NCBI RefSeq assembly: GCF_001425945.1
Contig: NZ_LMEB01000004.1
Coordinates: 358,537 to 422,536, forward strand
DNA length: 64,000 nucleotides
DNA from: Brevundimonas sp. Root1279
GTDB taxonomy: Bacteria; Pseudomonadota; Alphaproteobacteria; Caulobacterales; Caulobacteraceae
Direction: 5' to 3'
Below are positions 20,697 through 63,998 of this stretch, one piece after another. Made by a program: the position numbers and the translations under genes. Numbering within the stretch: the first letter of the stretch is position 1; every line of letters begins with the position of its first letter. Under the pieces are notes generated by a model, which was not told the origin of the DNA, made no database searches, and saw nothing but the letters and a program-made list of their open reading frames with translations.

Positions 20697-21482
20697 ATGC
20701 GTGACCTTTCGGGGACGATTTCGCTCATGACCATCGACCGGCGCCTGATGCTGCTCGGCCTTGCCGGGCTCGGCGGAAGCCTGGCCGCCTGCGCCAACGG
20801 CGACGTCGCCGCGCGCCGTCCGCAGTACGGCGCGAGCGGCCCCAACCGGATCGAGACCGTCCCCGCCGGCTCCTTCCGCGACATCGGCTTCGCCGACTGG
20901 ACGGAGGCCGAGCCGGAATACGTCCTCTACCCGGGCGACGAGATCGAGATCGCCACCCCGACCGCCGCCGAGCTGACTCGCACCCAGAAGATCGGACCTG
21001 ACGGCCGCGTCTCCCTGCCCCTGGTCGGCCAGATCATGGCCGCCGACCGCACCATCGCCGAGCTCGAGGCCGACGCCTCCGACGCCTTCGCCTCGCAACT
21101 GCGTCGTCCGGTCGTCGAGGTGACGCTGAAGACGGCCGCCCCGCTCAAGGTCTGGGTCGATGGCGAGGTCCGGTTGCCGGGCGTCTACGACATGCCCGCC
21201 GACATCGACGCCTGGCAGGCCATCATCCAGGCTGGCGGCTTCCTGCCCTCGGCCAAGCGCGATCAGGTCGCCCTGGTCCGCCGGGGCCCGAACGGCACGC
21301 GCATGCTCCGCGCCGTCGACCTCAGCCCAAATGATCGCGAGATCATCGCCCTGCGCCGCGGCGACATCGTCTTCGTACCCCGGACCCTGCTGGGCGAAGT
21401 CGCCGACTTCGTCACCCAGTTCCGCTCGGCCCTGCCCATCGGCTTCAGCTACGCCATCGGCGGACAGTACCAGTCGTTCTGA
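20697..21482 (+). CDS. hfsD: Outer-membrane polysaccharide export lipoprotein, HfsD (Wza type)
   Basis: The 261-residue lipoprotein has a signal peptide with lipobox LAAC (Cys32 from this start, Cys22 from the in-frame ATG at 20727). A polysaccharide export domain follows, starting at YVLYPGDEIEI with RTQKIGPDGRVSLPLVGQI, and then a SLBB-type domain beginning VWVDGEVRLPGVYDMP. It forms the outer-membrane channel for the polysaccharide and works with HfsA. GAGGG upstream favours ATG 20697. Confidence 0.88.
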   Translation: MRDLSGTISLMTIDRRLMLLGLAGLGGSLAACANGDVAARRPQYGASGPNRIETVPAGSFRDIGFADWTEAEPEYVLYPGDEIEIATPTAAELTRTQKIGPDGRVSLPLVGQIMAADRTIAELEADASDAFASQLRRPVVEVTLKTAAPLKVWVDGEVRLPGVYDMPADIDAWQAIIQAGGFLPSAKRDQVALVRRGPNGTRMLRAVDLSPNDREIIALRRGDIVFVPRTLLGEVADFVTQFRSALPIGFSYAIGGQYQSF

Positions 21483-21525
21483 AGGACGAGCGCCGGCGGG
21501 CCGCTTAGAGGCGGCGCGGCTGCCA

Positions 21526-21553
21526 AGTGATTAGTGGTTAGTGATTAGTGTTT
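21526..21553 (+). repeat. Left terminal array, four AGTGNTT units
   Basis: The units are AGTGATT, AGTGGTT, AGTGATT and AGTGTTT in direct tandem. Inverted, the array matches 21968-21995 at 26 of 28 positions. It ends 30 bp before the four-helix-bundle gene. Confidence 0.85.
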
Positions 21554-21583
21554 GCTGCGGAGCCGGATTCGCGAGGCGAGCCA

Positions 21584-21976
21584 ATGACCGATGGCGTCAC
21601 CAACTACCGCGACCTTCAGGTCTGGCGAAAGTCCCTGGACTGGGCCGAGGGCATCTACGAAGCGTCAGCGCACTGGCCTCGCGACGAGCGGTTCGGGCTG
21701 ATTGGTCAAATCCGGCGCGCGGCCGTATCGGTCGCGTCCAACATCGCTGAAGGCGCGGCCCGTCGAAGCACCGGCGAATTCATCCAGTTTGTAGGTATGG
21801 CGCGCGGGTCGCTTGCCGAAGCCGAAACTCAACTCATCCTGGCGGAGCGGCTCGGCTACTTGCCGAATGTAGATGCCCGCGCTCTGCTGCTGGCGTCGGA
21901 AGACATCAGCCGGATGTTGGTGGCGCTCTCCAGCGCCTTGTCACGTCGCAAGGACGGCGGAGCCGGCAACCACTAA
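21584..21976 (+). CDS. Four-helix-bundle protein, S23/IVS family
   Basis: This 130-residue protein shows the family pattern YRDLQVWRKSLDWA, then RFGLIGQIRRAAVSVASNIAEGAAR, STGEFIQFVGMARGSLAEAE and a final helix. Members were first seen in intervening sequences of 23S rRNA genes, and relatives (Avd) serve diversity-generating retroelements; the role of free-standing copies is not known. ATG 21584 has GAGGCGAG upstream. The stop codon and the two preceding codons lie inside the right-hand repeat array, so repeat and gene are physically one unit. The codon composition is less GC-rich than in the neighbours. Confidence 0.85.
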   Translation: MTDGVTNYRDLQVWRKSLDWAEGIYEASAHWPRDERFGLIGQIRRAAVSVASNIAEGAARRSTGEFIQFVGMARGSLAEAETQLILAERLGYLPNVDARALLLASEDISRMLVALSSALSRRKDGGAGNH

Positions 21977-21995
21977 TCACCAACCACTAATCACT
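21968..21995 (-). repeat. Right terminal array, four AGTGNTT units, inverted
   Basis: Read on the minus strand the units are AGTGATT, AGTGGTT, GGTGATT and AGTGGTT. The array overlaps the last two codons and the stop of the four-helix-bundle gene. A lone forward GGTTAGTGACT follows at about 22013. Confidence 0.85.
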
Positions 21996-22025
21996 GGCCA
22001 GGCGCCGGCGGCGGTTAGTGACTGC

Positions 22026-22325
22026 TCAGGCAGCCAGCTGAACCACGCCAGCGTCGATCCAGCGACGCGCGGCCTTCTGCGCTTCGGCGATCTCTTCCCG
22101 CTCCATCTCGGCGCTCATCTCGCGGCGATAGACCCGAGCTTCAATCGAGCCCTTCATCGCCGCGAGATTGAAGATCATATGGGCCGAGACACGGTCCATG
22201 GGGCAGCCGCCTTGGCCCGTCGAATACATCATGCCCAGTTTGAACAGGTCGTCCCCGTTCATCTCGACGGTCGGCAGCGGCAGAGCCTCTTCGACCATGT
22301 CAGGCGCGGTTTCTTGCGCGATCAT
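22026..22325 (-). CDS. Small Sel1-repeat-like protein
   Basis: The 99-residue protein holds a segment LFKLGMMYSTGQG with downstream SAHMIFNLAAMKGSIEAR, matching a Sel1-like (TPR-related) repeat that usually mediates protein contacts. The remainder is acidic with a helical C-terminus. There is no signal peptide. The ATG at 22325 has GGGAGA about 7 bases upstream and is preferred to a longer form starting at 22373. It lies immediately beyond the repeat element and has no clear operon partner. Confidence 0.65.
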   Translation of the reverse strand: MIAQETAPDMVEEALPLPTVEMNGDDLFKLGMMYSTGQGGCPMDRVSAHMIFNLAAMKGSIEARVYRREMSAEMEREEIAEAQKAARRWIDAGVVQLAA

Positions 22326-22540
22326 CACCGTATCTCCCGGTACCGGAGCCTTTCTGGCCCCGCCCTCTGACACGAATGAAATACCCGCGGTTTGAAGTTA
22401 AAGTTAACAGCAGAGGGGTCGAAACGGCCCTTTCAGTAAAGCAGGAGTGAAGATCGCGCTTCTGTTCAGACCTCTGAAATAGTTCCGAAATCTCTCGGTC
22501 ACACCGAATAACGAACCCTCACCGAGACCCTTACGACCTC

Positions 22541-62993: not shown

Positions 62994-63968
62994 ATGGCCT
63001 TCCCAGCGCCCGACGCGCCCCTACGCGACCTGTTCCCGGAAATCGAGCCGTTCGCGAGCGGCTGGATGCCGACGGGCGGCGTCCACGAGATCTATTACGA
63101 AGAGTGCGGCAACCCGCAGGGCGTGCCGGTCGTGGTGCTGCATGGAGGTCCCGGCGGCGCGGTGAACCCGGGCATGCGGCGCTATTTCGATCCGGCCAAA
63201 TACCGCATCGTCCTGTTCGACCAGCGCGGCTGCGGCCTGAGCCGGCCCAACGCCTCGCTCGAAGAGAACACCACCTGGACGCTGATCGAGGACATCGAGC
63301 GCCTGCGTGAGACGCTCGGCATCGACCAGTGGGTGGTGTTCGGCGGCAGCTGGGGTTCGACCCTGTCGATGGCCTACGCCATCACCCATCCGGACCGCAC
63401 CAAGGCCCTCGTGCTGCGCGGGATCTTCCTGCTGACCAAGCCGGAACTGCACTGGTTCTACCAGGACGGGGCCTCGAACCTGTTCCCGGACGCCTGGGAC
63501 CGCTTCCTGGAGCCGATCCCGGAAGAAGAGCGCGGCGACCTGATGGGCGCCTACTACAAGCGGCTGACCGGCGAGGACCGCGCCGAGCGCGAACGCTGCG
63601 CCGTCGCCTGGTCGAGTTGGGAAGGCGAGACGGTCAGCGTCCAGGGCCCCGACGCCCGCCCGGACAAGTTCGCCGAGCCTGACTTCGCCGTGGCCTTCGC
63701 CCGCATCGAGTGCTGGTACTTCATGAACGGCGGCTTCTTCCCCGAAGAAGGCTGGCTGCTGAAGAACATCGGCCGCATCCGCCACATCCCGTGCTGGATC
63801 GCCCAGGGGCGCTTCGACGTGGTGACCCCGATGTCGGGCGCCTGGGCCCTGCACAAGGCCTGGCCCGAGGCCAAGCTGGATGTCGTCAAGGACGCCGGCC
63901 ACGCCTCGACTGAACCGGGCATCATCGACAGCCTGGTGCGTGCGACGGACTGGGCCGCCTCACAGTAG
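62994..63968 (+). CDS. pip: Proline iminopeptidase, S33 family
   Basis: This 324-residue alpha/beta-hydrolase removes N-terminal proline. The oxyanion-hole motif is LHGGPGGAVNPGM, followed by FDQRGCGLSRP and the nucleophile elbow FGGSWGSTLSMAYA (Ser). Asp in QGRFDVVTP and His in AGHAS complete the triad. The length matches Pip. It ends 2 bp before a tandem repeat at the window edge. Confidence 0.95.
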   Translation: MAFPAPDAPLRDLFPEIEPFASGWMPTGGVHEIYYEECGNPQGVPVVVLHGGPGGAVNPGMRRYFDPAKYRIVLFDQRGCGLSRPNASLEENTTWTLIEDIERLRETLGIDQWVVFGGSWGSTLSMAYAITHPDRTKALVLRGIFLLTKPELHWFYQDGASNLFPDAWDRFLEPIPEEERGDLMGAYYKRLTGEDRAERERCAVAWSSWEGETVSVQGPDARPDKFAEPDFAVAFARIECWYFMNGGFFPEEGWLLKNIGRIRHIPCWIAQGRFDVVTPMSGAWALHKAWPEAKLDVVKDAGHASTEPGIIDSLVRATDWAASQ

Positions 63969-63970
63969 GC

Positions 63971-63998
63971 GCTAGGTTTTAGGGGCTAGGTTCTAGGC
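63971..63998 (+). repeat. Two tandem 14-bp units at the window edge
   Basis: GCTAGGTTTTAGGG is followed directly by GCTAGGTTCTAGGC; the units differ at two positions. The array may continue beyond the window. It resembles in style, not in sequence, the AGTGNTT arrays around the gene at 21584. Confidence 0.75.

Follow-up and report, generated by a model that had tools for sequence, protein, structure and literature searches.

The intervening sequence (IVS) in the 23S rRNA of Coxiella burnetii is described as an element of 428 nt that carries an S23-family open reading frame (ORF), with tandem GACAGAT heptamers preceding the ORF and terminal inverted repeats that give a 28-bp stem (PMC4990558). 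The same source terms the IVS a selfish element and cites older ideas that such sequences are remnants of transposition or of mobile elements; the portions of it consulted draw no link from the IVS to intergenic elements or to families of heptamer repeats. In REPIN/RAYT systems, a gene is linked to short inverted repeats that also occur as gene-less, extragenic doublets with predicted hairpins (Bertels and Rainey 2011, PMC3116915), and the REP sequence is described as a GTAG- or CGTC-tagged palindrome (PMC3733652). Heptamer repeats of the GGGAATC type have been reported from Xanthomonas, mostly as four units and in 70 to 75 convergent pairs per genome, GGGGATT heptamers from Nostoc 7120 (PMC4692102, Rehm et al. 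2015), and TAACTGA arrays from Beggiatoaceae, cyanobacteria and Bacteroidetes (PMC4679880, MacGregor 2015). These repeats are treated in the excerpts consulted as G-quadruplex-forming or translational-regulatory sequences (PMC4692102, PMC4679880), and neither "S23" nor "four helix" occurs in the main texts of the two papers. A search of the open-access literature, with subscription papers and other preprints lying outside its scope, found no paper tying S23 to heptamer arrays.

The window analysed here is a stretch of 64,000 nucleotides (C4:358537-422536 of a 3.43-Mb assembly, the host genome G000). Within it, an S23 gene of 130 aa (21584-21976, + strand; ATG at 21584 and TAA at 21974-21976) was detected by the S23/four helix bundle profiles TIGR02436 (114.6 bits; cut-off, 24) and PF05635 (120.3 bits; cut-off, 33.8). 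This gene is enclosed by a left heptamer array (21526-21553, + strand), consisting of the four units AGTGATT, AGTGGTT, AGTGATT and AGTGTTT, and a right array (21968-21995, - strand) that is the reverse complement of the left one at 26 of 28 positions. The inverted four-by-7-bp arrays had been reported in a first-pass annotation of this DNA and proved to be real, as did the derivation of the TAA stop codon from the right array (CACTAA). The inverted repeat extends imperfectly to 40 nt at 88% identity (21516-21555 and 21966-22005), and the whole unit, which is without strand, spans 21516-22005 with these terminal repeats included. Sequences matching AGTGNTTAGTGNTT with at most one mismatch occurred six times in the window, against 0.02 expected. 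A lower GC content than the surroundings had also been noted and was found (0.617 for the unit versus 0.692 for the window, with 3.6% of 470-bp windows lower), and the absence of a transposase from the unit was borne out, as the S23 gene is the only one encoded between the arrays. The RNA fold of the 521-nt stretch 21500-22020 was better than those of 100 of 100 shuffles (z, -6.0), and its ends were paired.

An S23 ORF between complementary ends is a feature that the unit shares with the 23S rRNA IVS. Unlike the IVS, however, the unit lies outside any 23S rRNA gene, in the intergenic region 21483-22025 between two ORFs. The left neighbor (20697-21482, + strand) matched polysaccharide-export families in Pfam and NCBIfam. 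The right neighbor, a small ORF (22026-22340, - strand), had been called Sel1, a name that was not upheld, with zero Pfam or NCBIfam matches at an E value of 0.001. A search of the window with Rfam at the gathering threshold returned tRNA only. Outside the unit, a partial array of the AGGTTCT/AGGGGCT family (63966-63998, + strand), truncated by the window end, was of the same heptamer family as the array of another S23 gene in this genome.

Among relatives, 29 orthologous loci were read, and both flanks were found in 22 of them. Five genomes (G496, G517, G037, G507 and G553) had an intergenic region of 14 to 51 bp without the unit, which is the empty site that the first-pass annotation had proposed to look for. 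G533 and, from a separate search, G058 had an S23 unit at the window's site, oriented as in the host genome, and by coordinates the S23 genes of G524 and G539, which share this orientation, adjoin one of the two flanking genes. A reversed S23 gene was seen at the window's site in G567 (L101) and, by coordinates, in G557 (C152:14309-14629). In G024 (L102), the site held a solo four-unit array, AGTGGCTGGTGGCTAGTGGCTGGTGGC, with no partner and no gene, overlapping the stop codon of the upstream gene. As several relatives hold S23 in either orientation or a solo array there, the window's site is either old or has been used repeatedly; these site comparisons are of presence and absence, in which gain and loss are not told apart.

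Filled and empty sites were also found on plasmids, some of them in cas operons. An S23 gene with octamer-type ends lies between cas10 and cmr3 on a plasmid of Picosynechococcus PCC 7003 (L410:2989-3345), with none in PCC 7002, and in Anabaena 90 another lies between cas6 and cas4 (L404:2995-3363), with none in Dolichospermum. The L404-L412 alignment was muddled by another repeat and was used as evidence of S23 absence only. Aulosira plasmid2 holds an S23 gene, and the corresponding place is empty in Calothrix, Microchaete and Aulosira plasmid1. An S23 gene was likewise observed at the cas6-cas4 stretch of a Pseudanabaena galeata plasmid. At four plasmid sites without the unit, no array was present. 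One element was found at three plasmid sites, and its copies were alike up to the outer heptamers, while two plasmids with the same insertion had a difference of two heptamers. The S23 start was 34 to 73 bp past the end of the upstream gene in 6 of 8 independent annotated plasmid copies, and 7 of 8 independent plasmid copies were co-directional with both neighbors, an orientation that could stem from the mechanism but also from selection for transcriptional read-through. The proposal of the first-pass annotation that arrays and gene form one unit thus held up, given orthologous sites without the unit and copies whose similarity stops at the outer heptamers. Overall, these sequence comparisons provided good support for treating gene and arrays as one unit and supported the suggestion that this unit is mobile.

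The association of S23 genes with heptamer arrays was examined in a wider set of genomes. S23 was present in 17 of 149 genomes of the family sample, 55 of 349 of the phylum sample and 52 of 101 of the genus sample, and the named top relatives in the protein search were mostly from Brevundimonas; no match was found in 50,697 phage records. A set of 223 loci was assembled from the family, phylum and genus samples (n = 144), a second family (n = 49) and genomes with TAACTGA arrays (n = 30, taken among the matches listed). A few S23 fragments of the phylum and genus samples, some second-family matches and most lower-ranked matches of the TAACTGA genomes were left out of this set, and four loci were dropped because of short flanks, leaving 219. 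Period 7 was the strongest period in both flanks of 174 of the 219 genes, and clear inverted heptamer arrays were present on both sides of 133. Period 7 was found in only 8 of 219 shuffled flanks, 7 of 247 same-locus control segments and 2 of 151 segments of the window, and inverted arrays were found in none of these three controls (0/219, 0/247 and 0/151). When the first members of 80% protein clusters were counted, the values were 124 of 161 for period 7 and 92 of 161 for inverted arrays. Period 7 was not the top period in both flanks of the remaining 45 genes. The top period was 8 in the flanks of L076, L051, L181, L183, L195 and L410, and the flank units of L410 resembled AGGAGATA.

S23 genes with such arrays were found in Pseudomonadota, Cyanobacteria, Chloroflexi, Verrucomicrobia and Bacteroidota. 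For 149 clear-array loci, the median outer-to-outer length was 452 bp (interquartile range, 436 to 489), and G exceeded C in the 5' array of 138. The stop codon lay inside the 3' array in 43 of these loci, before it in 82 and after it in 23, and was not found in 1, so that a stop codon within the 3' array is common but is not the rule. The first-pass annotation had proposed to check whether AGTGNTT arrays flank other S23 genes. Inverted heptamer arrays were present at most of the 219 genes measured, but the AGTGNTT motif was not general, as the heptamer depended on the lineage. The finding is real, and it is much broader than had been written.

Heptamer similarity was compared with protein identity within the 149 clear-array loci. 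The two were correlated over 11,014 pairs (r = 0.54; permutation maximum, 0.10), and pairs from different host groups showed a correlation as well (r = 0.37, against at most 0.255 in permutations made within groups). Of 35 cross-group pairs with 60 to 70% identity, 66% had the same heptamer (similarity of ≥0.8), compared with 0 to 2% below 50% identity. TAGGCAG was shared with another family and GGGTGT with cyanobacteria, at protein identities of 53 to 64%. Among same-genome pairs (n = 34), the correlation of 0.35 was within the range of the permutations (maximum, 0.51), and one same-genome pair with 70 to 80% identity had unlike heptamers. The three S23 genes of the host genome had three heptamers, AGTG-type, GGGTTGA and AGGTTCT, each of them inverted. 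These results indicated that heptamers differ between S23 lineages and track the similarity of the protein.

Predictions set beforehand from the published repeats were borne out for the GGGAATC and TAACTGA types. The GGGAATC analysis was run in one family, which was reached through relatives of XCC0516, the solved S23 protein 2GSC from Xanthomonas campestris. The five S23 genes whose products are most similar to XCC0516 (L332, L327, L341, L371 and L368; 67.6 to 73.6% identity) had CGGGAAT units in their flanks, with a weak signal in L368, whose top period was 9. Other S23 genes of this family had CGGGATT, CGGGACC, GTGAATC or GAGGAAC. A scan for four tandem TAACTGA units detected at least 111 stretches, and an S23 gene was present in 3 of the 111 listed. 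S23 was found in 36 of the 38 genomes behind 40 of the listed stretches, a proportion that has no matched background because these genomes were picked for having TAACTGA arrays. TCAGTTA, the complement of TAACTGA, was located on at least one side of the S23 genes of L245, L377, L390, L392, L393, L395, L400 and L401, and the opposite side often carried a heptamer variant.

The same arrays were repeated many times in the host genome without a gene, beyond what the window alone reveals. A scan of the assembly with the array pattern returned 92 overlapping matches, which for the most part formed short inverted pairs with no gene between them. A reversed-pattern control matched shifted arrays and hence was not independent in the host genome; in the genus sample, this control gave 0 matches in most genomes and up to 10 in G497 and G533. 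Extraction, from the stretches retrieved, of inverted AGTGRYT pairs with cores of 20 to 250 bp, a range blind to pairs enclosing a gene, yielded 21 gene-less elements of 85 to 187 bp. The genome has three S23 genes in total, and on this basis none lies within any further AGTG pair. The arms matched better within an element (0.903) than between elements (0.860; permutation P = 0.0012, n = 21). Related cores of ∼55 bp were found in 5 of the 21 elements, two of them in reversed orientation, and the flanks of these five were unrelated except for one 19-bp match. This identical stretch was observed in the left flank of C1:275771 and the right flank of C1:532031, which are copies of the same gene-less element in G000. 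No excess of direct repeats that could be target-site duplications was detected at the 21 elements, and no inverted target was found at any of them. A conserved RNA core was considered and rejected, as 20 of the 21 cores had z values above -2 and one had a value of -3.0.

The relationship between arrays and S23 type was examined in 101 genomes of the genus, which share ancestry. A matching S23 gene was present in 6 of 11 genomes rich in AGTGRYT (≥20 hits) compared with 5 of 90 others (P = 1.3 × 10⁻⁴), and in 4 of 6 genomes rich in TAGGKKC (≥10 hits) compared with 3 of 95 (P = 1.2 × 10⁻⁴). These thresholds were used because one of 5 hits is partly circular, an S23 unit adding arrays of its own; at ≥5 hits, AGTGRYT arrays were found in 4 of 41 genomes with other S23 types only and in 4 of 49 without S23. 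Array-rich genomes without a matching S23 gene were G499, G510, G511, G551 and G565 for the AGTG type and G510 and G557 for the TAGG type, and the assemblies of G510 and G557 were 70% and 88% complete, respectively. Exceptions of the reverse kind, with a matching S23 gene and few arrays, were also present. The AGTGRYT arrays of G511, G551, G499 and G510 were possibly left behind after loss of S23. The first-pass annotation had held that arrays found mostly away from S23 genes would speak against its reading, and taken literally this is the situation in the host genome, where 21 AGTGRYT pairs lie elsewhere and one S23 gene is flanked by AGTG arrays. However, because five of the cores are related and array-rich genomes more often hold a matching S23 gene, the gene-less pairs are better read as non-autonomous derivatives than as a refutation. 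Its interpretation as a whole was thus partly supported.

The predicted fold of the S23 protein (pLDDT, 90) matched 2GSC and 2RLD. Avd chains gave weak matches (8UB7 chain B and 4DWL chain D, with TM scores of 0.75 and 0.72 by query and Foldseek E values of 0.058 and 0.18), at an identity of ∼9 to 10% and in a range of E values where unrelated four-helix bundles also appear. XCC0516 is assembled from five four-helix bundles, according to the title of a cited reference. Six residues, Q42, R45, S49, N53, E56 and E79, were near-invariant (213 to 217 of 217 S23 proteins), which suggests a degree of constraint exceeding the needs of a mere scaffold. The S23 protein resembles no known jumping enzyme, and candidate enzymes were searched for elsewhere in the genomes. 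Movement mediated by a reverse transcriptase was disfavored for the host because G000 had no match to RVT_1 (PF00078); of the 101 genomes of the genus, 26 had such matches (21 of them over the cut-off), including the array-rich G524. Mobilisation in trans by a RAYT/HUH enzyme was likewise set aside for most of the genus, as Y1_Tnp (PF01797) was detected in just 3 of 101 genomes (G000, G503 and G547); it may still apply in G000 and G503. The match in G000 was borderline (23.4 bits; cut-off, 23) and was located on contig C9, distant from the unit.

The explanation that we consider probable is that the unit is a widespread minimal mobile element in which inverted arrays of a lineage-specific heptamer enclose an S23 gene, with gene-less derivatives analogous to REPINs. 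An S23 assembly would bind its own heptamers, most likely as a hairpin formed by the inverted arrays in single-stranded DNA or RNA, and would direct the copying of the unit to targets at or near gene ends. Gene-less array pairs would be copied in trans, and such mobilisation of gene-less copies is likely. Host enzymes of replication or repair could supply the strand chemistry, or S23 may have a so far unrecognised activity. The host seemingly needs no reverse transcriptase, and most of its relatives seem to need no Y1 (RAYT-type) transposase. A bolder extension, which we offer tentatively and hold to be somewhat more doubtful than not, is that S23 proteins define a class of mobile element not recognised before. 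In this class, fivefold assemblies of a small four-helix-bundle protein would by themselves, without transposase or reverse transcriptase, move heptamer-array hairpins via host replication or via an unrecognised active site formed by the near-invariant residues. The products of this class would be the 23S rRNA IVSs as well as the heptamer repeats seen in Xanthomonas and cyanobacteria.

Three other explanations were weighed against a minimal mobile element. The arrays may be RNA-binding or autoregulatory sites, in which an RNase III-type hairpin is bound by S23 as in rRNA IVSs and movement is rare and incidental. The fold of the whole unit with paired ends (z, -6.0), the terminal 28-bp stem of the Coxiella IVS and the heptamers that precede its S23 ORF (PMC4990558), the weak resemblance to Avd as part of a reverse transcriptase ribonucleoprotein and the co-directional orientation of 7 of 8 plasmid copies are consistent with such sites. 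Gene-less pairs dispersed in the genome, sites without the unit and the presence of one element at several sites argue against them, and we regard this explanation as unlikely. It is rather less probable still that S23 is a passenger, perhaps a regulator or stabiliser, captured between arrays that an unrelated host enzyme mobilises. A passenger would account for the want of a recognised catalytic domain in S23, for the solo array in G024 and for the array-rich genomes with no matching S23 gene, and the borderline Y1_Tnp match in G000 also speaks for it. However, S23 protein and heptamer type go together even between host groups, RVT_1 is absent from G000, and Y1_Tnp occurs in only 3 of 101 genus genomes.

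The association could also be one of target-site preference, with S23 inserting into pre-existing heptamer repeats born of slippage. The two-heptamer variation at one plasmid site, the solo array that G024 carries at the orthologous site and the location of most listed TAACTGA arrays away from S23 genes are what such a preference would produce. Against it, the arrays are inverted and flank the gene on either side, the heptamers are specific to S23 lineages (TAGGCAG being shared with another family and GGGTGT with cyanobacteria), and four plasmid sites without the unit have no array. We consider target-site preference very improbable.

The sources consulted give no known function for the widespread family PF05635/TIGR02436, which would gain a role from a link to lineage-specific inverted heptamer arrays. 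If the minimal mobile element is the correct reading, dispersed heptamer repeats that have so far been seen as quadruplex-forming or regulatory would have one origin, the 23S rRNA IVS would be a visible example of an element of general occurrence, and a single protein with a single 28-bp sequence would suffice to test how the repeats spread. A 23S rRNA IVP domain is reported to be CRISPR-linked (PMC10910872), and the S23 copies inside cas operons (L410 and L404), which are absent from close relatives, may bear on such reports, although the Pseudanabaena galeata plasmid has an S23 gene at the cas6-cas4 stretch too.

Comparison with known systems indicated partial likeness to several. A classical transposon or MITE has a target-site duplication and a transposase, and neither was found here. 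In a diversity-generating retroelement, Avd, which is reported to be homologous to PF05635 (PMC10053308), works with a reverse transcriptase and with template and variable repeats, whereas the host has no RVT_1 match. The published heptamer families (PMC4692102, PMC4679880) resemble the unit in their period of 7, and arrays of the GGGAATC and TAACTGA types flank S23 genes in the genomes analysed here. The Coxiella IVS, as described in the text consulted, is like the unit in its S23 ORF, inverted ends and heptamers (PMC4990558) but lies inside the 23S rRNA, whereas the unit lies between genes and is accompanied by gene-less relatives elsewhere in the genome. REPIN/RAYT systems differ in that the RAYT is a Y1 transposase and the repeat is a REP palindrome, compared with a four-helix bundle without a recognised nuclease and a tandem heptamer array in the unit. 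The unit and these systems are alike in joining a specific gene to short inverted repeats and in having dispersed gene-less doublets (PMC3116915), and this hallmark of REPINs was present in the host genome in 21 elements.
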